A stretch of DNA of 64,000 nt from Phalacrocorax aristotelis. Its lineage: Eukaryota; Chordata; Aves; Suliformes; Phalacrocoracidae. Every line of letters begins with the position of its first letter. The first letter of the stretch is position 1. The translations under genes and the position numbers were made by a program. Shown here one piece after another: positions 7,001-64,000 of the stretch. Location of the stretch: NCBI RefSeq assembly GCF_949628215.1, contig NC_134282.1, positions 19,138,723-19,202,722 on the forward strand. The letters are read 5' to 3'. The notes beneath the pieces were generated by a model. It did not search any database. It worked only from the letters and a program-made list of their open reading frames with translations, and was not told where the DNA came from.

Positions 7001-10000
7001 ATGCCCTCTGGCTCTGCAAAGCTCCCAGCATGAGGCTGGAGGTGTGGGTGGTGGCTGTGGTGCCACAGGGAGTGGCAGGGAGCATAAGTGTAGGGAGCTG
7101 GGGCTGGGAATGTTACTGAGGCACAGGAGGACATCTCATATTTCACTTATGTTGCAGTCATCGTCCTTCAGCAGCATCACAGACTCCACCATGTCCCTGA
7201 ACATCATCACGGTCACGCTGAACATGGGTGAGTGGGAGGCGTGCATGGAGCCTGCAGTCTTTCCAGAGTGAGATTGGGTGGCAGAGAGGGAACTGGGGAG
7301 GGGGCAAAGAGAATGTACGCAGGGAGGAGTGAGGAGGTGGACTCTTCAGGAAAGTGGCTTGTCTTGAAGCACTGGTCTCTCGGGAGTTTCTGTGTGTTCC
7401 GGGACATCTCCCTGGGACAGGGGTGCAAGCAACCATCATTAGCATGTGGTTTGTCTGAGATTAGGGCTGCTTGTGCCTGCTGCTTTATGGTGTCTTACTT
7501 CTTTCTCTTTCCATTCCTGCAGAGAAATACAACTTTCTGGGCATTTCTATTGTGGGACAGAGCAATGAGCGTGGGGATGGAGGCATTTACATTGGCTCTA
7601 TCATGAAGGGTGGCGCTGTGGCAGCTGATGGCAGGATTGAGCCAGGAGACATGCTCTTGCAGGTACTTCACGCCCACATACTTCCATCTTTGGGCCTGGG
7701 AAAGCAGTAAGAAAAGACCCAGAAGCCTCCCTGCGCACTTTGGCAAGCTAAACCCAGGAAGCTATGCTTGGAAGAGAGAAGCTGAGTCACTGCTGAGCTG
7801 AGTGGGGAGCTCAGCTTCTGGTCACATCTCTGGGACTCACCTCTTTGCATTGTTTGCAGGTAAATGACATCAACTTTGAGAACATGAGCAATGACGATGC
7901 AGTGCGGGTGCTGAGGGAGATTGTGCACAAGCCGGGGTAAGTACTCAGGTTGTTCCTTGCCTCCATGGGCAGCTGTACAGTATGTGCTTGGGGTGTGTGT
8001 GTCATGTCTACCAGCCACCTCTGCTAGAGGCTCTGCAGAAGCTCAGAACTTATGTTTTTGCTGTATTCCTGGGTTTCCGTGCCCAAAGCGAGAATTGCAG
8101 CCCACAGAATGGTAGTGAATTGGGGTCTGTGCTCCTTTTTTGTGGGGATGCCGTGTCTTAGGGTCATAAGCAACCCTCAGCAGGGTCACATCATGTTGTC
8201 CATGCCACTAAGGAAATCCATAGCTGGAGGGAGACAAGGGCACTTTACTAGCAGCTTCTCCCTGTCTCACAAGAGAGAGCCAGCATATAGCATCTGCCTG
8301 CCATGCAGGGGTTTGTGCCACTGGGCTCCTGTTCTAACTCTTGCCTTTTTGTTGCAGGCCCATCACCCTGACGGTGGCCAAGTGCTGGGACCCCAGCCCC
8401 CGGGGCTGCTTCTCGTTACCCAGGAGTAAGTGGATAGCTGACCCACCCTTAACGCTGGTGCCCAGCTCATGTGAGAGCCCTGCCTTAAGCACTTACTTGG
8501 TTGTTGTCTTGTTCCTCCCCTGTGTCTGTGACTCCATGTGGCACTGAATTTGGGTTTGATGGGGTTTCAGCTCTCCTCACAGGAGGCTGCTATGTCCTAT
8601 TCCCAGGCCAAAATGCCCACAAGCCCAGCCCTCTTTCCCACATCACGCTGGGGACGCGTTTCACTGGGGCAGGGGGGTCACTTGCTCGGGGCGCCAGAGG
8701 AAAGAGAAACCCCTCCTTGAGCCATAGGGGGATCTCTCCCTCTGCACCTCTCCTGCTGACCCTCCCTCTCTTCTTTCTCTCCCAGTTGCTCCCCAGCGGA
8801 TCTGGGCTGGGCCAGACTCTCCATGCTCCGATCCGGGTGAGTCCCGGCAGATGCTGGGGATGGAATGGGCTGTGCTGAGTCCCTGTCCCTCCCCAGAGGT
8901 TGATTTGATGAGGGGATAATTTCTTATAGCTATTGACTGACTCTTTCTTTACTGCAGGTGAGCCCATCCGGCCCATCGACCCGGCAGCCTGGGTGTCTCA
9001 CACAGCAGCGATGACTGGCACCTACCCAGCGTACGGTATGAGTCCATCCATGAGCACAATCACTTCCACCAGCTCCTCCATCACCAGCTCCATCCCAGAG
9101 ACTGAACGTAAGTCCTTGTGCCTCCGTGCTCCACCCGCTGCACGGCTTCCTCGCCTTCACTGTGATGTAAAGGGAGCAATACATCTGCCTGGGGACAGCT
9201 GGAATGGGCAAGGTCTATCCTGCCAGGGGACTAAGAGGGAGGCAGCTCTCACCAGGCAGGTCCTTGGATCAGTGGGAGTTCTAGCTGGGTGAATTAATAA
9301 CACCTTTTTCAGCCTTCTATGTAAGAGAAGAGCCTGGGTGCAATCCAGGAGCTGTGGGAGGTGTAGAGGAAAGGGTCAGAGCAGTCAGGGTTTACTAGCT
9401 GAGAGTGCCAGACCACAGGGAGTCAGCTTGTCCCTGGAGCAACTGCCCTCCCAGACAGTAGATAGCGCAAGGTGGAGGCAGATGGGAGCAAACGGCCTTG
9501 CAGTGGGGCAGGGCCCTGCTGAGCACCAGGGCTCTTTTGATTGCTTTCTGAAGGTTTTGAGTGATTCTAGTATACAGAGCCCTGAAACAAGGGTCTAGAG
9601 AGCTGGGGCAAAGAACCAAGAGTTTGTTGTAAGTTTGTGAGGAGCAGAGTGTTCCCCTGCTGGGCTGTGTGGGCTCAGTTGGAAGCTTTTTGGATCTCAG
9701 CTGCTTGGGAGTGTTTGGAAGGAAGGAGACTCCAGCCTTGTTTTTGCACAAGGTAAAATGGCTGACATGAGAAGGATGACATCAGAAGGCTGGAAAGGGG
9801 GTTACACAGCATGCGCCCCAAGGCTGTCTGCAATGTATTGTTCCCTGGCCCATTCCTCCTGTGTGTGATGCTTCCACATAGCCTTGTTATCTTTTCTATC
9901 CCCTCTCATCTCTGCCTCCCTTCCCTTTGTCCACACCACAGGCCTCGATGACTTTCACCTGTCCATCCACAGCGACATGGCCACCATTGTCAAAGCCATG

Positions 10001-12030
10001 GCCTCACCAGAGTCAGGCCTGGAGGTGCGTGACCGCATGTGGCTGAAGATCACCATCCCCAATGCCTTCATTGGTAAGAGACTATGCTGCCTGCAGCAGA
10101 GGCAGGGAGTGGGGAATAGGTGGCCTGTTTTCCAAGCTGATGCCCAAGGGAGCATCTCTATCACTCTATAAGCTGTTGACCAGGCCAGAGTCACAAACTG
10201 AACCTTTGGCTGTGGAGTCCCTTTTCACCCTGTGGCCCGCTTTGTCTTGGCTCCAGTGTGGTCCACTGCATCAAGGGCCACCATGTTCCTCTCTGTTGCT
10301 GTATTTAACTCTGATGTTTGGTGGCAGGTTCGGATGTGGTGGATTGGCTCTATCACCACGTGGAGGGTTTTACGGACCGTCGTGAATCCCGCAAATATGC
10401 CAGCAACCTGCTGAAGGCTGGTTACATCCGACATACCGTGAACAAGATCACCTTCTCGGAGCAATGCTATTATATCTTCGGGGACCTCTGTGGAAGTATG
10501 GCACTTGGCGTGGGAGGGAGGGAGAGGATGGAGTGGGTTTGAGGTCCTGCAGAGCCCTGCTAATACCATGAGGACATAGCTACGCCCATCACTGCCCTTG
10601 TTCTAAAGACCCTGTTAGAGAGTGAGGAGCATATCCCAGTTCCCTTGTCATGCTGCTGGAGTGGTGAAGTTGGGAGATGACACATTCACCTACTATGTGA
10701 TTATTTATTTTCTTTTGTCCTGGGCAGCCATAGCAGAGTCTTAGTCTTTACTGACTTTGTCTCCAGGCTCTGAACTTCCAGTGCTGGCAAGGGGGTGGTG
10801 CTCAGACAACTGAGTTCTGCTCAGATAAGAGGGATGGGGGAAGTAATTGGCAGGGCGAGCTGTAGCTCTGATGTGGTACTTTCCCACCAAGGTGGTCTCT
10901 GTGTTAGAGTGGCAGCTCTGACTCATACAACCTGGCTATTGTCCAGCCAGGATGCATAAATGGTTGCATTGACTAGCAGGGAGTATGCCAACTTCTTGCA
11001 TCTACTTGTGTATCCAGTTCTTGTCCAGGGTTGACAGGGAGCTGCTTCATTGCAGGTGGTTGTCTTTCTGCTTGGATTAACCCCTCTTCTCTGCTTTCTT
11101 GCAGACATGGCTAATCTTTCTCTTCACGATCACGATGGCTCCAGTGGTGCCTCCGATCAGGACACTTTGGCTCCACTCCCCCACCCAGGAGCTGCACCCT
11201 GGCCTATGGCTTTCCCGTACCAGTATCCACCACCTCATCCATACAACCCCCACCCTGGCTTCCCTGACCCAGGCTACAGCTATGGAGGGGGCAGTGCAGG
11301 CAGCCAGCACAGTGAAGGTGAGTGAAAAGTACTAAAATATGCCTGTTTGTGGGCAGATGCCCTGTTCAGTACAGGGAAGTGGCAGGAAAAGGCTGCTTAG
11401 GCAAGACCCTATGTGTTGAGGGAGCCAGAGCAAAAGCCATCTCAGAAGCTTTGTGGGACTTGGAGCTGAAAGGAGGCTGAGAGCATGGACTGTGCTGGCA
11501 GATGGTTGTGCTGCAGCCCATTGTAGTCCTGTCTTGGCTAGAGGAGCAGCCTTTCTTCCTGGCTTGTCTGAGCTGTCACCTAACCTTGCCTTGTGTGCTT
11601 CACAGGGAGCCGGAGCAGTGGTTCCAATCGCAGCGGCAGCGAGAGGAGGAAGGAGAGAGAGAAGACCGGGGAGTCCAAGTCTGGCGGCAGTGGGAGTGAG
11701 TCGGACCACACCACGAGGAGCAGTATGCGGCGTGAGCGTGCGGCCAGCGAGCGCTCAGTGCCAGCCAGCCAGCACAGCCAGCGTAGCCAGCACTCTCTGG
11801 CTCACAGCATCCGCAGCCACCACAGCCAGCAGTCGTACGGGCCACCCGGCCTCCCCCCTCTCTTCAGCCCCCCCATGTTGCTGATGCCTCCACCACCTTC
11901 AGCCATGGGGCCCCCTGGGGCGCCGCCAGGCCGTGACCTGGCCTCTGTGCCCCCCGAACTGACAGCCAGTAGACAGTCCTTCCGAATGGCCATGGGCAAC
12001 CCCAGTGAGTTCTTTGTGGATGTAATGTGA
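1047..12030 (+). CDS. DVL3: Dishevelled segment polarity protein DVL3 (5'-partial)
   Basis: Cytoplasmic Wnt signalling scaffold that polymerises through DIX, binds Frizzled through DEP/PDZ and recruits Axin. Fourteen coding exons are read: 1047-1116, 5037-5158, 5576-5682, 6242-6377, 6654-6747, 7158-7227, 7523-7662, 7860-7936, 8358-8425, 8958-9107, 9942-10073, 10328-10495, 11105-11317, 11606-12030. All junctions are GT-AG and all phases join, giving 1972 coding bases. Exon 1047 encodes the end of DIX ([19 protein letters not shown]). Next come the acidic/serine segment ([20 protein letters not shown]), the basic patch [11 protein letters not shown], the PDZ domain (7158-8425, [20 protein letters not shown]), the DEP domain (9942-10495), and the histidine/serine-rich tail ending in the conserved EFFVDVM. 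DVL3, not DVL1 or DVL2, is chosen from the near-identical tail ([20 protein letters not shown]) and the AP2M1-ABCF3 neighbours. The first coding exon is outside the window. An optional in-frame exon is listed separately. Confidence 0.97.
1117..5036 (+). other. DVL3: DVL3 intron 2 (3.9 kb)
   Basis: GC-rich intron with donor GTAAGC and acceptor GTCCAG. It holds a small triple tandem repeat at 3648-3700 and otherwise no coding or RNA gene that I can support. Several open frames of 60-214 codons run through it on both strands, but they lack family resemblance and plausible start or splice context. Confidence 0.7.
3648..3700 (+). repeat. Three-copy 16-bp direct repeat
   Basis: The 16-mer CTCTGTTAGATCAGAC occurs at 3648-3663, 3669-3684 and 3685-3700. 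The last two are directly adjacent and the first is separated by five bases (CAGAT). The copies look identical, implying recent replication slippage. It lies within a DVL3 intron with no obvious function. Confidence 0.9.
8786..8836 (+). other. DVL3: Candidate in-frame DVL3 cassette exon (51 nt)
   Basis: This 51-nt interval lies between the DVL3 exons at 8358-8425 and 8958-9107. It is preceded by a long pyrimidine tract ending CTCTCCCAG and followed by a near-ideal donor, CGG|GTGAGT. Spliced in, it keeps frame and adds 17 residues (about [17 protein letters not shown]) between the end of the PDZ domain and the conserved [11 protein letters not shown] segment. No stop is created. It is not part of the mammalian DVL3 protein as I recall it. 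Without transcript data it is a prediction from splice signals and frame only. Confidence 0.45.
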
Positions 12031-27600: not shown

Positions 27601-44253
<16,653 letters not shown>

Positions 44254-49100: not shown

Positions 49101-52100
49101 GCTGGGATCTGGCTGCACCAGAGCTTTCCTGTTGAGTCCCCTTCTCTGCCTTCTTCCTGCCCACAGGGTGCTTGAGGAGGCATCTGCCAGCCAAGCTGCC
49201 AGCAAGAAGGAGACTCGCATGGAGTCATCAGGCAAGAACAAGTCCTATGATGTGCGCATCGAGAACTTCGATGTGTCCTTCGGTGAGCGGTGAGTGCAGG
49301 TGGGGAGGTGGGACAGATCCTGGCTGGGGTTTTGGACCAGGGGTCATTGAGACTGGATTGGAGAGTGGTTGGGAAATGACAGAGGGCGTGAGAAAGATCA
49401 GAAAGCAAGGTGGGCACCCGAGCCTGTTGGCTTTGGGCAGGAGAAGTCTGTCATGGTTGCTTGGCCCCAGCACAGCCTGAAATATGCTGGGGGCAGGTGG
49501 CTGCCAGTTGCCTCCCTCTCTGTGGGGCAGTCTGACCAGGTCCCTGCCTGTTTTCTTGCTTTAGTGTCCTACTGGCAGGAGCAGACCTGAACCTGGCATT
49601 TGGACGGCGCTACGGGCTGGTGGGCAGGAACGGGCTGGGAAAGACTACGCTGCTGAAGATGATTGCCAGCCGGAGCCTGCGCATCCCCTCACACATCAGC
49701 ATCCTCCATGTGGAGCAGGAGGTGGCTGGGGACGAGACGCCAGCGCTGCAGAGTGTGCTAGAGTGCGACACCACTCGTGAGAGTCTGCTGCGGGAGGAGA
49801 GGGATCTGACAGCTAAGATTAATGCCGGCAGGTGAGATGTTGCTGCCGGGTTTCCAGCCCTTCTGTGCCTTCTTGGCCGCAGGGTCTTGTTCTGAGGTCT
49901 CTCCCTTCAAATGGTGGGCTCCAGCAGGGCTGGGCTGCATCTTGGCCACCTTAGTCCTGCTTGGCGAGCTCAGGCCCCCCCAGCACTCAAACCCTGACCC
50001 CCATCAGTCCCACACACTCCTCTTTGTCCTGCCCTAGGGGAGGAGGGACAGAAGGTGCCAGGCTGTCGGAGATCTACGCGAAGCTGGAGGAGATTGAGGC
50101 AGACAAGGCCCCAGCAAGGTGAGACAGCCCTGTGGGGACCGCTGTCTGTTGGCATGGGCAGTGGTTTGGGGCATGGGGTATGGAAGGGTAATGCTGTGGC
50201 CCTGGGATCCAGATGTGGGGAGAGGGGACTTTCCCTACTGCTCTTCTTGTCTCTCCTTCTGTCACAGCTCTGCTGGGTTAGGATTAGTTGAGCTTCCCCC
50301 AAAGCTGGAGGGATTTTTTTTCTTTTCCCAAATGGCTTGCATTGTTGCTGCTGCTCCTGTCAGACCTCCCCAGTTTCCTGGTTTCTGGGGAACGTTTCTG
50401 GGATGGTGGTGGTAGTGACCCTCTTCCTGGTCAAAGAGCTGAAAGCTTCTTGTGAATCTCCTGGGGCTTCCTGTGGATGCTGTGCCTTGCTGGGCTGCAT
50501 TTGCCAGCCAAGTGCTGCTCTTGGGTGTGCAGGGAAGTTTTCCTGCGCCAGAATGGCCTTAAACCTTAAACTATGCAACAGACTCCCCACAGTGACTGTG
50601 GGTCTGACACTTCAGACTGTTCTCTGCCATTGGACGCTGTAGCTGGGTTCCAATTCTCTCCCCTTTTCCCCAGGGCATCCGTCATTCTCGCTGGGCTGGG
50701 CTTTAATGCGAAGATGCAACAACAGACAACCAAGTAAGTCTTCAGGTTCTGGACATTGAAACAGAAATGGGTCTGGGGAGACGCTGCTGCTAGCAAACCC
50801 CCAGGCACTGCTGTGGCTGCAAGGGAGGGGAGCTCTGTGGGAGAGTGAGGGTCTATTCCTGCCCATCCAATATGGTCTCCTGCCCTGGAGGTGCCAAGCC
50901 ACCTGCCTGCTGGACCATGGATCTTGTGCTGCGCCCCAGATCTCTGCAGGGGCACCCCATCTCTGGGTGACAGCAGAGCCAAAAGGGCTGCCAGTGAGCA
51001 GGGAGCCTGGCAGGCAGGCAAACACAGAGTTATTCTGCATTAAACAGTAACCCCTTTCTGCAACCTCTTCTCTCCTCAGAGAGTTTTCCGGAGGCTGGAG
51101 AATGAGACTGGCCTTAGCCAGAGCCCTGTTTGCCAGGTTGGTGTCCAGGCCTTCATGCCATGGGGTTAATCCTCCTTGCTGTCCATACTGTGAGGTGCAG
51201 GGGTGCTGCCTGACTGTCCTCTTGACTCAGGCTCTCAGGGTGGGGGGCGTTGGAGGCATTGTAGCTCTCTGTGTATGGTGAAACATGCTCTGCACTGACC
51301 CTGTGCTCTTTTTGCTTCTGACACCCGTGTCTTGTTTCTCCTAGGCCAGATCTCCTTCTGCTGGATGGTAAGTCGATACTGTGATTTCCCTCCAACACTG
51401 CCGCTGGGCCTGCCTGTGCCCCTGCTGGCGTTGGGAACGCCCTGTGGCCTTTAGCTGCCTGCTCAAAATAGTCCTGCATGACAGGGCCAGTGCTGGTAGG
51501 GCTGTCGGTGCTCCCCTGGCACGGCGGACAGAGCTGGTGGTGGTGCGGGGAAGTCTGCTCAGGTGGCCACTTTCACTGCGCTCAGCAGAGCTTTGCCCCA
51601 GGTCCCAGCCAGGTGGTCTGTGTGTCATCGTGCCCCAAGCCCCTGTCCCTGCGATGGGCTCTGGCTGCCAGCATGCTCTGGGGAGAGTCCCTTTACTACA
51701 GGGGGTGACCCCAGCGCTGGGCTGGTTCCTTGGGGAGGTGCCGACTTTGGGTGGGGGGTCTGGGCAAGGCGCTGCTGCCGAGGCACCAGGGTCCAGGTAC
51801 TGGTATGGAGTGGGGGGAGCATCTCTAGCTGAGCCTTGGCCCCTGTACCCAGCCCCTTCAGCACACCCCACATGTGTTAGTCCCCTGAGCTGTGGGGGCA
51901 GGTCCCCATGCAGGGTGTCTTCCCCCACAATGCTGATCACTAGCCTCTCCTGTGCAAAAAGGCGTAATCCAGCTGTCCTCATGACCTCAGTGCCTCTTTC
52001 CGTTCCCTCAGAGCCAACGAACATGCTGGACGTGAGGGCCATTTTGTGGCTCGAGGCCTACCTGCAGGTATGGGGTGGTGGGAGGCCCTGGGACAGAGAG

Positions 52101-55100
52101 AGGGCCGAGGGATGGAGATGTCCTCCATGCTGGTGTCTCGCCTTGCTGGGTGGTGGGACCAAGCCCTGCACTCTGGCTTGACGATGTTCAGGCCTCCCTC
52201 TTGCCATCTCCTCCAGACTTGGCAGTCGACCATCCTCGTGGTGTCCCACGACAGGAACTTCCTGAATGCGGTGGCCACAGACATCATCCACCTGCACTCG
52301 CAGCGGCTTGACTCGTACCGTGGGGACTTTGAGAACTTCATGAAGATCAAGGAGGAGCGGCTGAAGAACCAGCAGCGAGAGTATGAAGCCCAGCAGCAGT
52401 ACCGTGAGCACATCCAGGTAGTGAGAGAAGCCAGTAGTGCTGGGGCATTCTTCTCCCAGCCTCATCCCTTTCTCCATGCTTCTAGACCCGAGATTGTGGC
52501 TCTGGCAGCAGAGTGGTGTGGCTGGGGCTGAAGGGGACCTGGGGCTCTCTGATGCTTTTCTTTCTTGTAGGTTTTTATCGACCGCTTTCGCTACAATGCC
52601 AACCGAGCGTCCCAAGTGCAGAGCAAGCTAAAGCTGTTGGAGAAGCTGTGAGTGCCTGTCCTGCTCCACCTGGGAAGTGGGGAGGGGGCGGTGCTCACGG
52701 GAAGAAACAGGTTCCCAGGGTGCCTGGGAGATACAGGGGTGGCTTGGAGTTTGGATGCTCTGTCTCTGGTCCAGAGGCTTTGGCTAGGATGAGGCATCAC
52801 AGAGCTGATGCCTTCTGGTGTGAGAACAGGCTCCCAGTGCAAGGCACCCTGGTTATGTATCTCCTCTTCTTGCAGGCCAGAGCTGAAACCTGTGGACAAG
52901 GAGTCTGAGGTGATCATGAAGTAAGTGTCCCCGAGCCCTTGCTTGGAGGGCACCTGGCTCCCTTTCTGATGTGAGTTCCTCCTGGCTCCTGTCCTGGCTG
53001 GGACCACCCCTTCCTGCGTGCCAGCCTTACTCTGACAGGGAGCCCAGAGAGGCCCCCATGTTGAGGCTGGGTTCCCGCCTGGGGCCAAGGCTGCAGTTCT
53101 GTGTCCCCTTCTTGTGAGCATCCTTCCCAGAGGCCCTACATGGTAGGGAGGCCCCCTTGCCATCTGGTGGGTTGCAGAGATCGTTCCGGGGGTCTGGGAG
53201 CAGTGTCTCTGAAGTTCCTGGTTATCTCTCACCTCTTCCTGCCCTCCCAGGTTCCCTGATGGCTTTGAGAAGTTCTCCCCCCCAGTCCTGCAGCTAGATG
53301 AAGTAGACTTCTGTTACAACCCAAGTCACTACATCTTTCGTTCCCTCTCCGTCTCTGCTGACCTGGAGTCCCGCATCTGCGTGGTATGTGGGACCACAGA
53401 ATAACGGTAGCCATGAGGGGCCTCGGGAGGTTCCTGCTCAAAGCAGGGCCAGCTTTGATGTTAGGTCAGGTTGCTCAGGTCCTTGTCCAGTTTAATTCTG
53501 GATATCTCCATATTCACACTGTGTCATAGATATATATACACACATATAAGCTATATATGAATAGAATTTAATTCTCATTTCCATAGAGGGGGCTATTTCT
53601 CCCATTCTTCTAGGTCCCACTGTAGCATTTGATCATCCTCATTTTGAGGAACATTGGAACATTTTTACTAATACCAGTTAAAATTTGTGACTTATGCTGT
53701 TGCCCTTCATCCTTTCACCGGCTGCCTCTGAGAAGAGACTGAGTCCATCTTGTCTGTAACCCCCCGATAGCTGACAACAGCAGCCTGTAGTGGGGGTTCC
53801 TGCTGCACTGGATGGGACAGCAGAGAGATGCTATGCACTTGCAAATGAGGCTGGGATCAGGTAATCCTTAGGCTCAAGGTGTGGGGAGGGAACATCATCT
53901 AGCACTGCTGCCTGTGCTGCTCATCAGTGATTGGAATGCAGCTTCCAGGTAGCTGGAGTCACTGGTTAGACTCTCATCCTGCCCCCCTCTGCTGTGTGAT
54001 CATCCAAGAGAGCAGAAATTCCCTGATCACTGCCCTCTCTCTGAAGTACCTTCACGGGTTTCACGTTCTCCAATGCTGCTGCTGCTTCTCTAGGTTGGGG
54101 AAAACGGAGCTGGCAAGTCGACCATGCTAAAGATCTTAATGGGGGAGCTGGCACCAGTCAGAGGGATCAGACATGCTCACAGGTACCTGGCAGGAAGGGG
54201 TGGGTGACAGGGAGGAATGGTGCAGTTGGAGGGCTTTTGGGCTATGCTTTGGAGCGATGGCTGCCCAAGTGATGGGGATGGGTCCTGAACACCCACGCAT
54301 ATGCCCCCCAGCCTATGGCTGTAACTTCAAGCGCTGAGGTTGCAGGGCCTGGTACCAGCTCCCAGTCTCTCTTCTCATTCTGCAGAAACCTGAAGATCGG
54401 TTATTTCAGCCAGCACCATGTGGATCAACTGGACTTGAACATCAGTGCTGTAGAGTTGCTGGCAAGAAAGTTCCCAGGTGAGCTTTTGAGATTCCAGGAG
54501 GTCTGGGCCATTGAGGTCTCCTTTGCCCTGCATGGAGCAGCATTGATTTGCTCTGTGGCCCTGGGCAGAAGACTCTGACATGTCAGTGCTTAGGGGACAC
54601 CACCTGCCCTGGGTTAGCTCCCCACATCCCGCACAAGTTCAGGACACCAGCCTTGAGAAGCTGGGCTGGTTGCACAGGGGTAGCTGCCAGTCTGCATACC
54701 TCAGGCTCGTGTTCTGCTGTGGCCAGGTTTTGGGGGCAGGTGACCCATTTTCCTGCTGGGCACAGAACAAGCATTGGCTCCCCCTTTCCCAGCTGCCAAA
54801 ATCTCCAGCTCCCTTCTCCACTTAACATTATGTAACGCAGTGACAGGGAATTAGGGGCAGTGTCACTTGGAGTCAGTCACCAGCCCTGGCAGCCCCTGTC
54901 CTGATTGTGTCAGTCAGGTTTTTCCCTGCAAGCCCCCCGCTTGGGAGGAAATTGCCTGGAGGTGGCTGCTGAATTCCTCCCCTGCCATGCTGGTCTGGCA
55001 CAGGCTGCCCGGCCGCGGCACCCACCAAGCTCACGGCGCCGAGGGCCCTGTGTCACGCCGGGTGTGCCATAGCTGTGGTGTGACACGCTCCTGCAGGGAA

Positions 55101-56686
55101 GACGGAGGAGGAGTACCGGCATCAGCTGGGGAGCTACGGCGTCTCAGGGGAGCTGGCTGTGCGTCCTGTGGCCAGCCTGTCCGGAGGTCAGAAGAGTCGC
55201 GTGGCCTTTGCCCAGATGACTATGTCCTGGTAATTTGCTCCCAGATGCTGTTAATTTTTGCACAGCTCCATCCCTGGAGCCTGCTTCACCGGGAAGAAGG
55301 TGGGCATCCAGGGACTTTTTGCTGCCCCACAGAAGCCTTGTCCTTGGGACTTTTGTGGGGAGGGAGGTTGTCACACTGGGGGGATGCTGAAAGGAGGCAG
55401 GTGGCATTCTCCTGCTGCTTTGGGCTCACAGGGATAAGAGCTGTCCCTGGAGCTGGGCAATGCCAATCTTGGGACCATGCAAATGCCCGTGGCTGCGGCT
55501 TTTCATGGCTAATGCAGCAGCCTGCTGGAGGTCTCTGCAGTGCGAAGGGGTGCAGATCCGGCCCAGGCCTGTCCCAGAGCATGCTCAGAGCCGTCTTCTC
55601 TTCCAGTCCAAACTTTTACATCCTGGATGAGCCGACAAATCACCTGGACATGGAGACCATCGAGGCGCTGGCAAAGGCACTGAATAAGTTCAGGGTAAGG
55701 CTTCTTCAGTGAGATCTCCTGTTTTCCTAATGGTCCCTGCAGCCTCCAGCACGGGTTACCTTGGTTATCTCAGCCAGAGGTGGACAGTCAAATACCAGTG
55801 ATAGCTTCAAGTCCAGGACAGGTGTTGGGAGGGTCAGTCACATTTCTGCCTTAGACCTCCATCCTGGTGGTTCATTTCACTTGCTGGCTTGGCTAGGGGT
55901 GGCTGAGAGAGGCAACAGCAGACCAGAGAGCACTTTGTCCCCCATCTTGGCCAGTCACCTCCACTCTGTGACTTCTCATGTGCTGCTGTGTGCTGCATGT
56001 GGTGCTCAGCCCTGCCTTGGGGCCTCTCAGCTCTTAGGCATAACTTATGGCTGATCTCCACAGGCTCAGCCTCCAGATACCACTGTGATGGACCTGCTTC
56101 TCACTGTTTCATAGTTGCTCAGGTTGGGGCAGTTTTCCTGTGAAAGAAAAGCTTAATTGAGGTTACTCAGGGCATGGTCGAGCCACCTTTTGGCTGTCAT
56201 TGACTTTACCTGGAATCTCCATCCTTGCAGTTGTCAGAGACCTGGAGAGCCAGTAACAAACCTTGCACTTGCTTTCCAAGGGGGGAGGCTAGTAGGTTAC
56301 TGGTGCACATGCCTCCTCCGTACGTCATCTGTCTGTCCCCCTGAAGGAAGGAAAGACTGGGATTGGGTCCCTGCCTGTGAAGAACTGTTGAGTTTTCCCT
56401 GGAGTGGATGGAGACCTGAAGTCCTGGGCACTGGCTGGACAGGGGTGCAGGATCTCCATGCCACTAGCACTGGGTTCTTGGTTGTGTTCCACCAAGTTCC
56501 CTTTTGTCCCCCCTTGTGTGTTGGCAGGGTGGTGTAATTCTGGTGTCCCACGATGAGCGCTTCATCCGCCTGGTGTGCCAGGAGCTGTGGGTGTGCGAGA
56601 AAGCCACCGTGACCCGCATCGAGGGCGGCTTTGACCAGTACAGAGACATCCTGAAGGAGCAGTTCCAGAAGGAGGGTTTCCTATAA
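46164..56686 (+). CDS. ABCF3: ATP-binding cassette sub-family F member 3 (ABCF3)
   Basis: Soluble twin-ATPase of the ABC-F family with no membrane domain. Relatives act on ribosomes (yeast Gcn20 class), and mammalian ABCF3 is linked to antiviral and growth functions. Twenty-one coding exons: 46164-46236, 46447-46594, 46676-46755, 47135-47190, 48953-49050, 49167-49289, 49565-49831, 50038-50118, 50674-50733, 51080-51136, 51345-51367, 52012-52067, 52217-52417, 52571-52647, 52876-52920, 53251-53383, 54094-54182, 54386-54477, 55097-55229, 55607-55694, 56528-56686. The total of 2139 bases gives 712 residues (human about 709). First cassette: Walker A GRNGLGKTT (213-221), signature SGGWR (332-336), Walker B LLLLDEP (351-357), H-loop SHD (384-386). 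Linker with NRASQVQSKLK. Second cassette: Walker A GENGAGKST (528-536), signature LSGGQ (614-618), Walker B ILDEPTNHLD (636-645), H-loop SHDERF (667-672). The C-terminus is EGFL. Every catalytic motif is intact. A 23-nt exon (51345-51367) splits the first Walker B. Confidence 0.98.
46284..46422. repeat. Three TGTCGCGACA palindromes in ABCF3 intron 1
   Basis: The 10-bp perfect palindrome TGTCGCGACA lies at 46284-46293, 46303-46312 and 46413-46422. The last two are flanked by matching CAGGCGGCCG sequence in direct or inverted form (46310-46320 and 46400-46414). The three copies fall in a 210-bp intron inside a CpG island. They may be local duplications or a clustered factor-binding site, similar in kind to the TCTCGCGAGA element but not the same. 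Confidence 0.8.
47191..48952 (+). other. ABCF3: ABCF3 intron 4 (1.8 kb)
   Basis: The longest ABCF3 intron, between the exons ending GQTS and starting MVNAKKLEK. No repeat or gene is recognised in it. Confidence 0.65.
53420..53800 (-). mobile_element. Old, degenerate CR1 LINE fragment, antisense
   Basis: Within ABCF3 intron 16. GTCAGGTTGCTCAGGTCCTT followed by GTCCAGTTTAATTCTGG is the reverse complement of the CR1 segment that normally reads near GACAAGGxCCTGAGCAACCTGA. Further on, CACCGGCTGCCTCTGAGAAG and GACTGAGTCCATCTTGTCTG resemble the reverse complement of more upstream CR1 sequence. An AT-microsatellite-like stretch (53530-53565) interrupts it. It has no open frame and is clearly older than the copy at 21142. 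Boundaries are approximate. Confidence 0.65.
53530..53565 (+). repeat. AT/CA simple-sequence patch
   Basis: ATATATATACACACATATA followed by AGCTATATATG. A short alternating purine-pyrimidine patch inside the degenerate CR1. Confidence 0.7.
55695..56527 (+). other. ABCF3: ABCF3 last intron (0.8 kb)
   Basis: Lies between the second Walker B exon and the terminal exon. No feature is recognised. Confidence 0.6.
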
Positions 56687-57405: not shown

Positions 57406-57949
57406 GGTGTTCTCCTTTCCCTGGGGGGCTGCGGGGCTTGAATTGGGGGCGGGGGGAGGGAGAGGAGAGCGGAGCACAAGGCTGCTAGCGGGGAGGTGCT
57501 CTGGATGGGTCCCGGAAAATTAAATGGCTCCCCGGGGTGGCGCAGTGGGGGCTGTGCCCGTGTCCCACCGGGCTCCTTGGGGCCGTGGGCCACCTCGCGG
57601 CGAGACCGGCGTTGATCCGGTTGCGGTTTGGGGGGGATGAGGGGGAGCGGGACGAGGGGGCAGAGCAGGAGGGCCCTGGCAGCCGGGGGAAGGGGAAGCG
57701 GGGGGACCACGGGCACCCGGGGCGCGGGGTGCTGCTGCCCAGTGGAGGGGCTGTCGCGGGGCAGGATGCAGCCCCGTCCACGCTACACCCCCCCCCCCCC
57801 CCACCGGCGCCGGTAGAGGCTGTCCCCCCCACCCCGCCCACCGGGGCGGCCGGCGCGAAGCCCCACCTCCGCCTTCCCCGCCACCAGGTGGTCCCGCCCC
57901 TGCGGCCGGGGCGGTGCTCGAGCCTCGCTCCGACCGGCGGCGGGCGCCC
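57406..57949 (+). other. ABCF3-PHF intergenic, CpG rich
   Basis: About 0.5 kb of GC-rich DNA joining the ABCF3 3' end to the next CpG island, with a C15 run near 57787-57801. No gene is seen. Long open frames here on both strands are products of stop-codon scarcity at high GC. Confidence 0.65.
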
Positions 57950-57950
57950 A

Positions 57951-57987
57951 CCGGGACGGGCCGGGACGGGACGGGCCGGGACGGGCG
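57951..57987 (+). repeat. CCGGGACGGG/ACGGG minisatellite before the PHF start codon
   Basis: CCGGGACGGG is repeated twice, then ACGGG units run up to three bases before the start codon. If transcribed it forms part of the 5' UTR. Its regularly spaced GGG triplets are quadruplex-competent and could affect translation. Confidence 0.8.
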
Positions 57988-57989
57988 GT

Positions 57990-60900
57990 ATGAGCGCCGG
58001 CGGGGAGGCGGCAGGTGAGGGGCGCGGGGCCGCCGCCCCCGGAGGACCCTTCCCCCGCGGGGGGCCGCCCTCGGCGGGGAGCAGCCCTGTGCCCAGCCCC
58101 GGATCCCCCTTGCCCGAGGAGGTGAGTTGGGGGGGGCCTGTATGCGGGTACCGGGGGGACCCCGCGGGATTCGCCGGTCCTGGGGGTGCGGTGCCGCCCC
58201 GGGCTGCGGGGGTCCCCGCGGGGGAGGGGCGGGTGGGGTCGCGTGAGTGTGTCGCTGTGTGCACGGGAGGGTCGCGTGTTTTTATACCGGGGAAGTCGTG
58301 TGTGTGCACCGGGGTGGGGGGTCGCGTGCGCGCGCGCGTGTGTGTGTGTTTGCGCATGGCGGGGGTCGTGTGTTTTTACGCCGGGGAACTCGTGTGTGGT
58401 GCCGGGTGGGGGAGGGGGGCAGGGGCAACACGGTCGTGTGTCGAGGAGGGCTTTGCGGGAGGGCGCTCTGTGCGTGGGGGGTTGTGTGTGTGTGTGCGTG
58501 CGTGCGTGTGCGCGCGCGGGGGCGGAGGGCGGCTCGGCTCGGGGTGTGTGCCCGGTGGGGCTCCGTGTGCGAGGAGCCCTCGGGGGGCGGCTGTGGGCGC
58601 GCGCGCGTGTGGGCGCGGGTGGGGGGGCGGAGGTACGCGGGATCCGTGGGGGTGCGGCTGCGTGGCCGGGTTGTACCGCGGCGTGTGCCGGGGCTCGGGG
58701 GCTGCGGGGCTGCGTGTGTGTGTGTGTGTGTGAACGGGGGGGGCTCGTTGTGTGCCGGCTCCGGGTGGGGGGTGGGGGGATCCCGGAACGGGTGCTGCTC
58801 GTGCAGTGGGTGTCCGTGTCCGTGGGTAGGGTCCCCGTCCCCCCCACCCCGCGGCCGGTTGGGGCAGGACCGGGAGCGCGGCGCCATCTTGGGAGCCATC
58901 AGGTGCCCGGCGCGGGGACAGGCGGCGGCGGCGGCGGGGGGGGCGCCCCCCCTCCCCCTTCCCCCTTCCCCCTTCCCCCTCCCCTCTCCCCTCCCGGCGG
59001 GCCGCCTTCCCGCGGGGGGAGCCGCACGGCCCGGCTCCGCAGCCTCCCCTCGCTCCCCGGAGCCGGCGGAGGGGGGTGTCTGCTCCTCCGCCCCCGGCTC
59101 GGGGGGCGCCGGCGCGGGGCTGGCCCTGCTGCGGGCACCCGGCGCTCCCGCTGCGGCGTCTCCGAAGCCTCGTCCTGAGCGGCGCCGGCCTCTTTCGGCT
59201 GACCCGGGAGGAGCCGGGGAAGCCCAAATCGCCGGGCGCCCTCTCAGCTCCGCTGCCTTCTCCCTCTGGCCTTGACTCAGCCGGCTGCGGGCGTGGGGGG
59301 GAAAGGGGGGGCGGCCGTCCCCGGCTCCGGGGCTCCCGAGCCTCTGACTCATGCTCTGCCGGGCGGCTGCTGTGCTTTCTGGATGTCCCAGCATGTCGTC
59401 ACTCTGTGTGTGTGTCCCCGTGTGTTTGTGTCCCGACCTGGGTTTTAAAGGGAAGGGCTGCATCTGTCGAGCCAGATGATGCAGATGGGTTACAGGAAGG
59501 ATGGGTGTTCGGGTGACCTAAATATTGTGCGCTTCTATAATTGCCTGGGCTGCCTGCCGGGGTCGGTTGTGATATTCGGCTCAGGTAGGGGAATCCAGGG
59601 AGTTTAATTGACACGTGGCATTTGTTGTAGCCATTGCAGAAACGACAGAGAACGGTGGAAGACTTCAACCAGTTCTGCACCTTCGTTTTGGCCTACGCAG
59701 GCTACATCCCCTACCCTGAAGAGGTAAGCAGTCTTGCGGACTGTTCCTCAACAAAAAGACTGGTTCCTCTGGGCCCCCTGCCATGTGCAGACCCAGCTCC
59801 TAATTCTTCTGGAGACTTGTTCTCCATCCCTAGCCCCTTCCTCCTTTCCCTAGACATCTGTGCTGCAGTCTCCCATGCTAGTCCTGCATCTTCCCCTCTT
59901 GCAGAATGAGCCCTGGACCCACGGAGGCAGCATGAGTCCTCAGAACAGCACGGGGAGCACTCAGGACAGCGATAGCTGGGCCTCGTCCCACTCCTCTGAC
60001 TGTCAGGTGCTGACGGATGACAGGAGGAGCAGGAACGCCGTGGCCCGGGGGGCTGTGGACAACAGCCTGCTCGTGAGCTGCCCTGCCTTCCCCACCGGTT
60101 TCTATGATGTCCAGCCCCAGCAAACCAAACGGAAGAAACCACCAGCAAAGAAACTCATTTTAGAGCAGGAGGTGGAGAAGAGGGTGCCGCCGAGTGCTGG
60201 GAAGGGCTTTGGGGCAGAGCAGGATGGGGTGAAGGAGCTGGCTGTACTGGAGGGACAGGTGCCTCCTGTGAAAGAGAAGCTCTTGGAGCCTTCCCTCAGC
60301 CCAGCTGGGGACACCCAGCCCAGCTCCCTCCTGGAGGAGCTGATGAAGGAGGAGAAGGACTGGGTGCACGGAATGCAGGGGACCGAAAAGCCAGCAGGAG
60401 ATGATCCTCAGCTAAAGGAGCACAACCCCTGCTCTGGAGGGAGGAAAAGTCCCAGTTCTTGTAGTACCTTGGACCAAAGCAAAGGGGAAGATGCAAGCAG
60501 AGGGAGCTCCCAGCTTAGTGGTGAGTGTCCGAAGGAGTGCAGAGGGCCCTGTCGTGCTGCAGCCAGTGCCAAATATTGTCCCTCCCTCAGCTGGAGCCAC
60601 CCATGCTGGCTGCAGAGAGGGTTTGATGATGGTCCAAGCCTCTCCCAGTAAGGGGAGTACTGCTGGAACCTGGGACAGCTGAAGAGCAGAGAGCAGGGAA
60701 TTGGCCTGCCCTTTGGCAGAGCGAGCAGTACAGACCTGAAACGTGTCTGAAGTGGGGTGTAGGGGTGCCTTGCTCATCTGGTCTTTACTTTTTTCTTTTT
60801 TCCCCCTTTTTGCAACTTTAGGAGTCGAATTTGCAGGAGCTCCCAACACCAAAGCAGAAGGTAAGTGGGGGGCTGTCCCATTTAACACCAGTGGAACTGG

Positions 60901-61196
60901 CTAATCTGGCCACAGCCAGACCTGCAGCTGGTAAGGTGGTTTCTGACCAGTGTCTTTTGCTCTAACCAGATGATGATGCCTGGGATCTGATCACCTGCTT
61001 CTGCCTGAAGCCCTTTGCAGGGAGGCCCATGATCGAATGTAACGAATGCGCTACCTGGATCCACCTCTCTTGTGCCAAGATCCGCAAATCCAACGTGCCT
61101 GAGGTTTTCATCTGCCAGCGATGCCGTGATGCCAAGCAGGAGATTCGCCGCTCGAACCGAGCTCGGATGGTGCCCCGCAAGCGCTTCTGTGACTGA
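57990..61196 (+). CDS. PHD-finger protein of the PHF13/PHF23 family
   Basis: Probable nuclear histone reader; PHF13 and PHF23 bind H3K4me2/3 through the same PHD. Exons: 57990-58121, 59631-59723, 59905-60520, 60822-60860, 60970-61196; 1107 bases, 368 residues (PHF13 about 300, PHF23 about 403). Residues 48-75 hold the family N-box ([20 protein letters not shown], then GYIPYPEE). A serine-rich DSDSW segment follows, then the basic KRKKPPAKK, a likely nuclear signal, and a divergent middle. The [12 protein letters not shown] to CQRC block is a complete C4HC3 PHD: C303, C305, C317, C320, H325, C328, C342, C345. The tail [17 protein letters not shown] is closer to PHF13 than PHF23. The first exon is inferred: it is the only ATG frame that joins in phase, but other first exons are possible. 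An acceptor three codons further in (after TTGCAG, 59639) would also keep frame. It could be PHF13 itself relocated, or a third paralog; position beside DVL3 favours the latter. Confidence 0.88.
58711..58732 (+). repeat. (GT)n microsatellite
   Basis: TGCG followed by nine GT units, ending TGAACGGG. Z-DNA prone, within PHF intron 1. Confidence 0.85.
58880..58892 (+). promoter_or_regulatory. YY1-type site inside PHF intron 1
   Basis: GGCGCCATCTTGG, the classical downstream-promoter YY1 element. Such sites usually lie within about 30 bases after a start site, so an alternative transcription start near 58860-58880 is possible. Confidence 0.5.
58945..58995 (+). repeat. Polypyrimidine CCCCCTT tract
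   Basis: An almost pure C/T run built from CCCCCTTC units. The complementary strand is G-quadruplex or triplex competent. Confidence 0.8.
59273..59351 (+). promoter_or_regulatory. Two AP-1/MARE-like sites
   Basis: TGACTCAGC at 59273-59281 fits both AP-1 and the NRF2/MAF antioxidant core TGACnnnGC; TGACTCA at 59345-59351 is AP-1. They are 72 bases apart, downstream of the internal YY1 motif and upstream of PHF exon 2. Confidence 0.45.
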
Positions 61197-62938
61197 AGCT
61201 TCTCCAGAGCAGGGAGGCTGGGGGTCCCCTTTTTAAACTGAAGACTGTAGCCCGGTTTGGCTAGACAATCAATGCACAGTAATGGCAGGGGAGCGGCTGG
61301 GCCTCAGGGCTGGACTGTCCCCCTTGCACTTCTGACTCCCGGAAGCTGCCACACGCATCCTCCCTGTGGATCACGTTGACCATGGAGCTCGGTTACCCAA
61401 GAGGCATGGGAGGGAGAAGAGGGTGGCCAGCCGTGCACTAGGTCACTTGGAAACATCTCTGCCCTCGCACAAAGCTGGCTCAGTGCCTTTCCCCCAGGGC
61501 AGATGAGGAGAACCTAGTCCAAGTAGTTTTTCTGTGGTGTGGTGGAAGCTTACACTTGTCCCAAGATGTGACTCCCCTTCCTCTTTTTTCCCCACCATTT
61601 TCCTTTCCTTGCCTCGGACCTTTGGGTGGGCTGCAATGACAAAGCCCCAGTGACCCAAGTTCTCCAGCCAGTAGGTGCAGCCCAGGCGAGTTCCCTCCAT
61701 GTAGTGTGCTGCCCTCTAGGGTGGCAGAAGAGACTTTGGTCCTGCTGATGCCTGAAGCAGACTGGGGCTCCGTGTCGTGGGGGTATTGGCAGAGCTGTCC
61801 ATCTCCAGCTCATCAGCCTTGTAGGCTGCACAGGGGAGGTCCTTCCCCTGGCCTGTGGTGCTCCTGGTTTCATTTGCTGTGCCCATGGCCCCAGGATAGT
61901 CCTGTTGGGTCAGAAGCCGCAAAGGCATTCTCTGGTAGTCTATTACAAAGGCTGTTCTTGATGAGCAGCTCACCTTGGTTCACCTTCTCCAGTTGCACTG
62001 AAGTCTCCTGTGTGAAAGCGGGGTGGGATTCCTGGTAGGAGACCAAGCAGTTATCCTCAGGGCTGGGAGCCCTTTGGAAGGGGAGCAGGAAGTGCTTTTG
62101 TTAGCTTTCCATGTTTCCACTTCCAGTTTAAAACAACTGAAGCTTGTACCCTGTGGCCAGCTCCTGCCTGCAGGGCTGTCTGGTAGAGCATTAACACCAA
62201 CTGGGTGCTGAGACATGAGCTCAGATGCAGCCTGGAGCTGGGAGGACCTTCCTTCCCAGCATTCCCTCCATCACAACAGTTGGGTTTTTTCCTGGACCTA
62301 TAGAATGAAACCTAATGACTTGTCAAGAGTGGGCCCTGAGCCCCTTCTGCTATGCAACTGCTGCTCCGGAGGCACGGGATATGCCCTCTCCAGGCCCCTG
62401 GTTAAGTTTGGCAGTAGCAGGCTTTCCCTTGCTCCGTGTCCACTGTGTGCAGTGTGTGTGTGTGTGATCTCCTGGGGCCCCACGTGCACTAACTGTTGGA
62501 TCTCACCTCCTCCTCACAGCCCCTCCAAAGAGCCTGGCCCATGTGCCTTCTGCACTTTCCCTGGGGGATGCAGACCCTGCTCCTGTCCTGGTGACACTTG
62601 GTTCAGCCCCTGGCATGCTGCTGCACACAGGAGGAAGTGGGACAGACCCCACTTGCCAGTCCCCACAACTGTTATTTCTTAACTGGGTTCTTTCCTACTT
62701 GCACATCTGGTTACGGCGGGACCACCGCTGGGGGAGGGTGCAGGGCAGCCCCATGTCACTCAGCAACCCCCAGGCTCATCCCTGTGCCTCACTCCTGTAG
62801 AAAGCCTGGGCCCCAAAAGTGCTTTATGTTTTTATAGTTACTTTGTATTGATATGTAAAACAGCAAATTCTGGTCCTTGCCCTGTGGAGTGTGGCTGGAG
62901 TCTTATGTATATAATAAAGTACTTTTGCCATAACGGTG
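61197..62938 (+). other. PHF-gene 3' UTR
   Basis: About 1.7 kb after the TGA at 61194-61196, ending at the AATAAA at 62913. It contains a short (GT)n at about 62451-62466 and no coding sequence that I can support. Confidence 0.8.
62913..62918 (+). terminator. PHF-gene poly(A) signal (AATAAA)
   Basis: AATAAA, followed by a GT-rich element (GGTGGCTTTGGTATTCTTTG) 18-38 bases downstream. It defines the 3' end near 62935. Confidence 0.88.
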
Positions 62939-63104
62939 GCTTTGGTATTCTTTGGTGCCTCACGTCTTGCATCCCTCTGGGACCTGAGTGCTCCTGTTCT
63001 CCTCCTGCTGTGGCTGGGAGGGCACTTGGTGTGGGGATTCCACCCAGCCCTGCTTTCCCCCCCACTTCCACAGTAAACGCCAAGCCACACAAACAACAGG
63101 GAAC

Positions 63105-63827
63105 ACATGAGCCAGTATATGTTGTATTTAATAGAGCAATGCCCACTTTCCTCCTTGCTGCAACACATGGAGCTTCCACAGGAACACCATCTGGAGCTGT
63201 GCAGGCTTGAAGACAACCTCTTCAAAAGGCACAACTTCCTGAGGCTGCAGCCAACCCACTGCGAGCATCATGGGTTACTCCAAAGAAGCAGGAGGTCTGA
63301 TGGCTGGGGGATGTTGCCCACACACCCTTGCTGCAACTCTTAAGGTACACCATGATTTAGCTCAGAAGTTGTGTTTTGCTCTTGGGATCTGACAAACCTT
63401 CCCTGGCTCTGTCTCCACTCTGGAGTGGAGCTATGATTTAGATCTGACAGCAGTTAAAGTGCCAAAGGATCCAGTTTTCTCAACAAAATAAAGTCTGTTA
63501 TTCAAGCACAGAAGCATCACTAGCTTCCCCTGCAGATCCAGAGGTGTGCCAGCTTCCATCAAGCAATTTGTTGGGTCAAATGGGGGATGCAGTGAATAGG
63601 ACAGGGCAAGAAGGCACTGGGGGCAGGAAGAACTCACTGTTTGAGGGGACCCTTACCAAAGCAGAGTCCTGCTGGTGTGTCATCTCAGTCCTGAGGCAAG
63701 TGTGCTGGGGCAGAGGCAGCAAATAGTCCAAGAACAGCAGCAAAACCAGGCATAATTTCTCTTCTTGGGGCCAAAGCTGGGTTTGTACAGCCAAGTGAGC
63801 ATCCTGGTGAGCAAGGCAGGGGGGGGT
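63105..63827 (-). other. 3' UTR of the minus-strand gene
   Basis: On the minus strand the stop at 63828-63830 is followed by about 0.7 kb of non-coding sequence to an ATTAAA hexamer at 63132-63127. A GT-rich stretch (TGTGTTCCCTGTTGTTTGTG) then follows, a convincing poly(A) site. Confidence 0.65.
63127..63132 (-). terminator. Minus-strand poly(A) signal (ATTAAA)
   Basis: ATTAAA, read on the minus strand, with a GT-rich downstream element at about 63108-63085. This convergent 3' end lies about 0.2 kb from that of the PHF gene. Confidence 0.65.
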
Positions 63828-64000
63828 CTACTCCTCCTTGGCCCAGATGGACCTGCCTGCCTTCTTCTCCAGGTGAGGAATCACCGCCTCAGTGTAAAAC
63901 TTCTCCAGCTTGGGCACCGTCTGCCCCCAAAACTTGTCATCAAACTCCACAGGGACCACAGCTGTCTCCTTAGTGGTGTGCACCACAAAGTCAGCCCGCT
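63828..64000 (-). CDS. C-terminal end of a YqaJ-exonuclease-like protein (partial)
   Basis: Minus-strand frame open from the window edge to a TAG at 63828-63830, about 57 codons. It begins RADFVVHTTKETAVVPVEFD, continues DKFWGQTVPKLEKFYTEAVI and ends in a charged tail finishing WAKEE. The pattern of an aspartate strand (ADFVV.T), then V.V.FD..FW and a helix PKLE.FY..A..P.L, is the typical end of YqaJ/lambda-exonuclease-like (PD-D/E)XK nucleases that occur in some vertebrate proteins, often with a SWIM zinc finger. The catalytic residues would lie upstream of this piece and cannot be checked. The assignment rests on remembered motif shape. The gene continues beyond 64000 and could be a host gene or domesticated DNA. 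Confidence 0.5.
   Translation of the reverse strand, partial: RADFVVHTTKETAVVPVEFDDKFWGQTVPKLEKFYTEAVIPHLEKKAGRSIWAKEE

Follow-up and report, generated by a model that had tools for sequence, protein, structure and literature searches.

A PHF13/PHF23-type PHD-finger gene downstream of DVL3 in Phalacrocorax aristotelis: probable third ohnolog of the family

Introduction

Which member of the PHF13/PHF23 family lies downstream of DVL3 in Phalacrocorax aristotelis? The window that we analysed is a stretch of 64,000 nucleotides (C7:19138723-19202722) of a 1.279-Gb assembly with 352 contigs. In it, two genes separate a DVL gene from a PHD-finger gene. A first-pass annotation had read the PHD-finger gene as the DVL3-side ohnolog of PHF13 and PHF23, kept in sauropsids and lost in mammals. 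Here, we describe this gene, its relatives in the same genome and the chromosomal block in which it lies, and weigh this reading against its rivals.

Results

The window contains a complete PHD-finger gene

The PHF13/PHF23-type gene is complete (57990-61196, + strand). The start ATG is at 57990, the stop codon ends at 61196, and the frame of 1,104 bases plus stop encodes 368 aa in five coding exons with GT..AG borders at all junctions. Exon 1 (57990..58121) encodes 44 aa of low complexity and ends in phase 0 at a gtgagt donor. Exon 2 (59631..59723) encodes the N-terminal box. Exon 3 (59905..60520) begins with an SPxNSTGxTxDSDSW motif, which is common to PHF13, and continues into a divergent middle with a basic patch; its 205 codons are open, the chance of which is about 6e-4 given the exon's own composition. 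Exon 4 (60822..60860) is only 39 bases long, with phase 1 at both ends. Exon 5 (60970..61196) encodes the C4HC3 PHD finger, the C-terminal tail and the stop codon. A CpG-island-like region (57500..59499; GC 0.72-0.79, CpG o/e 0.76-0.93) covers the promoter and exon 1 and extends through most of intron 1. The probable 3' untranslated region extends over 61197..62935 (+), with its end placed from an AATAAA at 62913, which is the sole AATAAA/ATTAAA within 61197-63200. A scan with bacterial-consensus promoters and terminators was uninformative. Thus, the description of a complete gene with a PHF13/23 N-box and a C4HC3 PHD finger agrees with the exact coordinates, the intact exons and the family matches given below.

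The PHD finger and N-terminal box are conserved and the middle is divergent

The PHD finger corresponds to residues 297-348. In a sequence search against solved structures, which gave 15 sequences at E up to 0.001, the best match was human PHF13 (3o7a; E 7.2e-30, 107 bits) and the second was human PHF23 (6wxk; E 1.5e-24, 90 bits). MLL5 came next as the nearest other family, far behind (E 1.3e-07). The Pfam profiles PHD_2, PHD_5 and PHD all exceeded their cut-off. The zinc ligands are complete (C303, C305, C317, C320, H325, C328, C342 and C345), and all ten residues of the H3K4me3 pocket (T302, F309, M314, I315, E316, W323, V336, P337, E338 and F340) are identical to those of PHF13. According to PMC4915813, each of these residues belongs to the K4me3 cage, the contact with Arg2, the Ala1 pocket or a binding-dead mutant. 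The F/M/W cage of PHF23, as defined in PMC7335091, is also kept.

Comparison with the PHF13 of the same genome covered the part from exon 2 onwards, because exon 1 of PHF13 was not located. The box, which PHF23 has too, is identical at 24 of 27 residues, and the PHD finger plus tail at 60 of 75. Judged from these matches, membership in the PHF13/PHF23 family is beyond chance. The dN and dS values were 0.12 and 1.44 in the PHD exon and 0.09 and 1.08 in the box, and dN/dS was about 0.08 in both. Amino-acid changes are thus few and silent changes many, which indicates that the protein has been under selection.

The middle had been described as strongly diverged, and the comparison bears this out. 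Only 36 of 157 aligned residues are identical to the PHF13 of the same genome, and the local similarity is weak (score 54; 4 of 500 shuffles reach this score). The diverged part includes the region of PHF13 mapped as DNA-binding (human residues 101-200). Only one 25-residue stretch in the middle reaches a net charge of +5, as compared with two at +6 in PHF13. A search of solved structures with the N-box for a SIN3-type helix gave no useful match (one match, E 0.3, to a chain named bS21m).

The great divergence of the middle is what would be expected if the gene were a decaying pseudogene. However, the five intact exons with canonical borders, the conserved pocket and box, the low dN/dS, the CpG-island promoter and the poly(A) signal make decay extremely unlikely. 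A retrocopy was also considered and is ruled out: introns are present, and their phases (0 after the box, 1 before the PHD finger) match those of the PHF13 in the same genome. The intact spliced frame and these shared phases support an ohnolog.

A separate PHF13 locus lies on another contig

The first-pass annotation had made its reading depend on a separate PHF13 locus, and such a locus was found. The genome search scores the best candidates only, so that the counts given here are of loci detected among the matches listed. With the whole protein as the query, six exon matches fell at two loci, four at the gene on C7 and two at C19:9.277 Mb. The box of the C19 gene, used as a query, found the same two loci and no other match at E up to 10. 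The PHD finger of human PHF23 matched the C7 gene (E 1.4e-23, 92.2 bits) and the C19 gene (E 2.1e-22, 88.5 bits), and the remaining five of seven rows had E values of at least 0.09.

The C19 gene (C19:9277184-9278938) has the middle and tail of PHF13. The 80 kb around it contain a receptor ligand-binding exon, C2H2 zinc-finger exons, a BTB-BACK-Kelch gene and a DnaJ exon. In human, the order is TAS1R1-ZBTB48-KLHL21-PHF13-DNAJC11 (disregarding THAP3), and the C19 neighbourhood fits this order. The DnaJ exon obtained no specific name from solved structures, where 33 general DnaJ matches were found. The C19 gene is clearly PHF13, and a second DVL gene lies on the same contig.

PHF13 itself is thereby ruled out as the identity of the C7 gene. 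As an orthologue of PHF13, the C7 gene also fails by its different neighbourhood and by the absence of the PHF13 central stretch (VIRQGKQVVFRDED...DEDIMVDS, before the PHD finger). Moreover, its basic region is shorter than that of PHF13, and its 39-base exon 4 is separate, whereas the modelled PHF13 of the same genome has no separate exon there. Relatives of the C7 gene were sought in viral contigs and none were found.

Distances to PHF13 and PHF23 in the PHD finger and middle

Over 49 PHD residues, the C7 gene has 5 differences from the PHF13 of its own genome, 5 from human PHF13 and 13 from human PHF23. The two PHF13 sequences differ from each other at only 2, and PHF13 and PHF23 differ at 13-14. 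In the middle, the PHF13 of this genome is identical to a provisional human PHF13 sequence at 91 of 154 residues and the C7 gene at 27 of 151. From these distances, it looks as though the C7 gene and PHF13 split before human and sauropsids did, or as though the C7 gene evolved fast.

The distances bear on two rivals. In the first, a later, sauropsid-age duplicate of PHF13 landed beside DVL3 and its middle evolved fast. The PHD finger is indeed nearer to PHF13 (5 of 49 residues differ) than to PHF23 (13 of 49), the C-terminal tail is PHF13-like, and one PHD residue, the I in EVFICQ, is common to the C7 gene and the PHF13 of the same genome and differs in human PHF13. However, a recent copy of PHF13 is expected to be closer to its own than to human PHF13, and therefore the equal distances of 5 and 5 speak against a recent copy. 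The barely alignable middle and the high dS (1.1-1.4) do so as well. Together with the map position described below, they make a late duplicate very unlikely.

In the second, the C7 gene is the lineage's own PHF23, relocated beside DVL3. The PHD finger of human PHF23 matches the C7 gene slightly better than it matches the PHF13 of the genome (92.2 vs 88.5 bits), the I of DLIT at the start of the PHD finger is common to the C7 gene and PHF23, and five is likewise the exon number given for human PHF23 in PMC12626910. However, an orthologue of PHF23 is expected to be closer to PHF23. The 13 differences in 49 residues, a comparison that is limited to the PHD finger and assumes similar rates, therefore speak against PHF23, given that human PHF13 and the PHF13 of this genome differ at just 2.

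Neighbours place the gene in the DVL3 arm

The gene had been described as lying two genes downstream of DVL3. The order in the window is DVL, AP2M1, an ABCF-type gene and then the PHF13/PHF23-type gene. The DVL gene is represented by PDZ, DEP and C-terminal exons (7498..12030, +), AP2M1 by one exon (41930..42049, +) that matches AP-2 mu well above AP-1, and the ABCF-type gene by a part (49581..56686, +) whose best solved relative is ABCF1 and which is ABCF3 by position. The DVL PDZ domain differs from human DVL-3 at 1 of 81 residues (167.5 bits) and from DVL-2 at 2 of 81 (165.6 bits); DVL-1 scored 150.5 bits. When PDZ and DEP were joined, the top chain was full-length DVL-2. Thus, the PDZ speaks more strongly against DVL1 than against DVL2. 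Because DVL3 and DVL2 are split by one residue, the name DVL3 rests mainly on AP2M1 and the ABCF-type gene, both of which come after DVL3 in human. With the name understood in this way, the described position holds. This near-tie in the PDZ also weakens the ohnolog reading and strengthens the relocated-PHF23 rival. On the other side, human PHF23 neighbours DVL2 and GABARAP. The C7 gene instead has AP2M1, the ABCF-type gene and a DVL slightly nearer to DVL3 than to DVL2 as neighbours.

Downstream of the PHF13/PHF23-type gene, a gene on the opposite strand occupies 63828-64000 (-) and continues to 64961, past the end of the window. Its frame of 377 aa contains a YqaJ-type exonuclease domain (PF09588, E 6.7e-19; Viral_alk_exo, E 2.1e-07), and its own locus was the sole match in the genome. 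This frame may represent a domesticated nuclease gene present in single copy. Beyond the window, at window coordinate 75327, lies a VWA-domain exon (PF13768, E 1.8e-07). In human, the next gene after ABCF3 is VWA5B2. The VWA exon stands in its place, so that the human order seems to resume past the PHF13/PHF23-type and nuclease genes.

Two contigs carry parallel DVL, p53-family and PHF13/23 genes

DVL1, DVL2 and DVL3 belong to the TP53/TP63/TP73 block. DVL exons gave 12 rows in the genome: five in the window, five at C19:6.575-6.584 Mb and two weak rows on C36 (34-47% identity). All six rows of p53-family exons fell on two contigs, three at C7:16.88 Mb and three at C19:8.777 Mb, and their letters, compared with provisional reference sequences, read as p63 on C7 and p73 on C19. 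The p63-like gene is 2.3 Mb from the PHF13/PHF23-type gene. Thus, C7 and C19 each have a single member of the DVL, p53 and PHF13/23 families. This resembles the human block, in which the regions of chromosomes 1, 3 and 17 around p73, p63 and p53 derive from early genome duplications (PMC5543598). It differs in that the third arm (TP53, DVL2 and PHF23) was not detected in the assembly.

Because the C7 gene shares its contig with DVL3 and a p63-like gene, it occupies the chromosome-3-type arm. A random copy would fall as near as this to either of the two DVL genes with a probability of about 1.4e-4, as computed after the place had been seen, which counts against a late duplicate of PHF13. The same flank of AP2M1 and the ABCF gene, with the p63-like gene on the contig, counts against a relocated PHF23, since relocation exactly beside DVL3 would be a coincidence. 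PHF23 is upstream of DVL2 in human and the C7 gene is downstream of DVL3, which implies that one of the arms has had its order reshuffled.

A VAMP1/2/3-type exon was also found at C7:24361396-24361566 (+), about 5.2 Mb from the PHF13/PHF23-type gene. The other two VAMP matches were VAMP3-like at C19:9634294, which is 0.36 Mb away from PHF13, and on C1 (three of nine rows in all). The C7 exon is possibly another ohnolog of the DVL3/TP63 arm. Human chromosome 3 is not known to carry a VAMP1/2/3-type gene.

The third arm is probably fragmentary in the assembly

PHF23 is located at human 17p13.1 (PMC12626910). A genome search with the PHD finger of human PHF23 and the box of the genome's own PHF13 detected no separate PHF23 locus. 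A third DVL was not detected among the 12 DVL rows, nor a third p53-family gene (TP53) among the six rows, and none of the 11 ATG8 rows was GABARAP; compared with provisional reference sequences, they read as GABARAPL1, GABARAPL2 and LC3 types. That no other PHF23 locus was detected favours the view that the C7 gene is PHF23.

The Pol II-specific domain PF04990 was found on C334 alone, a contig of 35,921 bases, 3 kb of which were read and have 65% GC. The POLR2A-like gene there is at C334:31111-32607, and POLR2A is located at 17p13.1 in human. This suggests that the counterpart of human 17p13.1 is present as fragments only in the assembly. It has been reported that p53 is absent from avian assemblies and present in transcriptomes (PMC5543598), and that 29% of ohnologs are lost from paralogons on avian dot chromosomes (PMC12954441). 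Because the only 17p13.1 marker found is on a 36-kb contig, the absence of PHF23 is uninformative about the animal. Moreover, the third DVL, GABARAP and TP53 were likewise undetected, so that PHF23 is probably unassembled. Some ohnologs are documented to have moved away from avian dot chromosomes (PMC12954441), which lends the PHF23 rival a precedent. On balance, we regard a relocated PHF23 as unlikely. The available main text of PMC12954441 names none of PHF23, DVL2, PHF13 and TP53, and the available part of PMC11247504 offered nothing useful on DVL2 in chicken.

Discussion

The C7 gene is probably a functional third member of the PHF13/PHF23 family, the ohnolog of the TP63/DVL3 arm, as judged from its sequence and map position; the other arms would be TP73/DVL1/PHF13 and TP53/DVL2/PHF23. 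This is the reading of the first-pass annotation. Those parts of it that concern a separate PHF13 locus, a paralogous arm with DVL3 and a p63-like gene, and a PHD finger equidistant (5 and 5) from the two PHF13 sequences were borne out. The separate PHF23 locus was not detected. Against a DVL3-side ohnolog stand the few sites and the single species of the comparison, the slightly higher score of the PHF23 PHD finger against the C7 gene, the near-tie of the DVL3 and DVL2 PDZ domains, a gene order unlike the human DVL2-PHF23 order, and the five exons of human PHF23.

The likeness to PHF13 (SPOC1) in the box, the PHD finger and tail, the intron phases and the pocket, and to human PHF23 in the F/M/W cage and the DLIT start, suggests what the protein may do. 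PHF13 binds H3K4me2/3 and DNA (PMC4915813). The N-terminal domain of PHF23 binds SIN3-HDAC and restrains its activity, according to a review (PMC12626910). The C7 gene product would be a nuclear protein, and its PHD finger, with all ten pocket residues kept, would dock on H3K4me2/3 at active CpG-island promoters. The N-terminal box might recruit a PHF13-like partner, by analogy the SIN3-HDAC complex. The divergent middle keeps a short basic patch only, so that DNA contact and other partners would probably be unlike those of PHF13. With one +5 stretch in place of two at +6, its DNA contact may be weaker than that of PHF13.

More speculatively, early vertebrates may have had three or more PHF13/PHF23 genes, one for each DVL/p53 arm. 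The DVL3-side copy would then have been kept here and lost from mammals, and would combine the H3K4me3-reader/SIN3-type role of mammalian PHF23 with a rebuilt middle and new partners. We put this wider proposal forward only tentatively, and the odds are rather against it in full.

None of the papers listed in the literature searches describes, in its title or the opening of its abstract, a third PHF13/PHF23 gene. One survey of avian ohnologs counted just those with human orthologues (PMC12954441), and therefore a gene like the C7 copy would fall outside it. If a phylogenetic tree confirms the third copy, the two-gene view of this reader family that is drawn from mammals would be incomplete, since mammals would have lost an ancient third copy. 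The gene would then be an extra marker for the duplication block of the DVL and p53 families. It would also provide a natural comparison of which parts of PHF13 and PHF23, among the box, the middle and the PHD finger, are held in common and which can vary freely.
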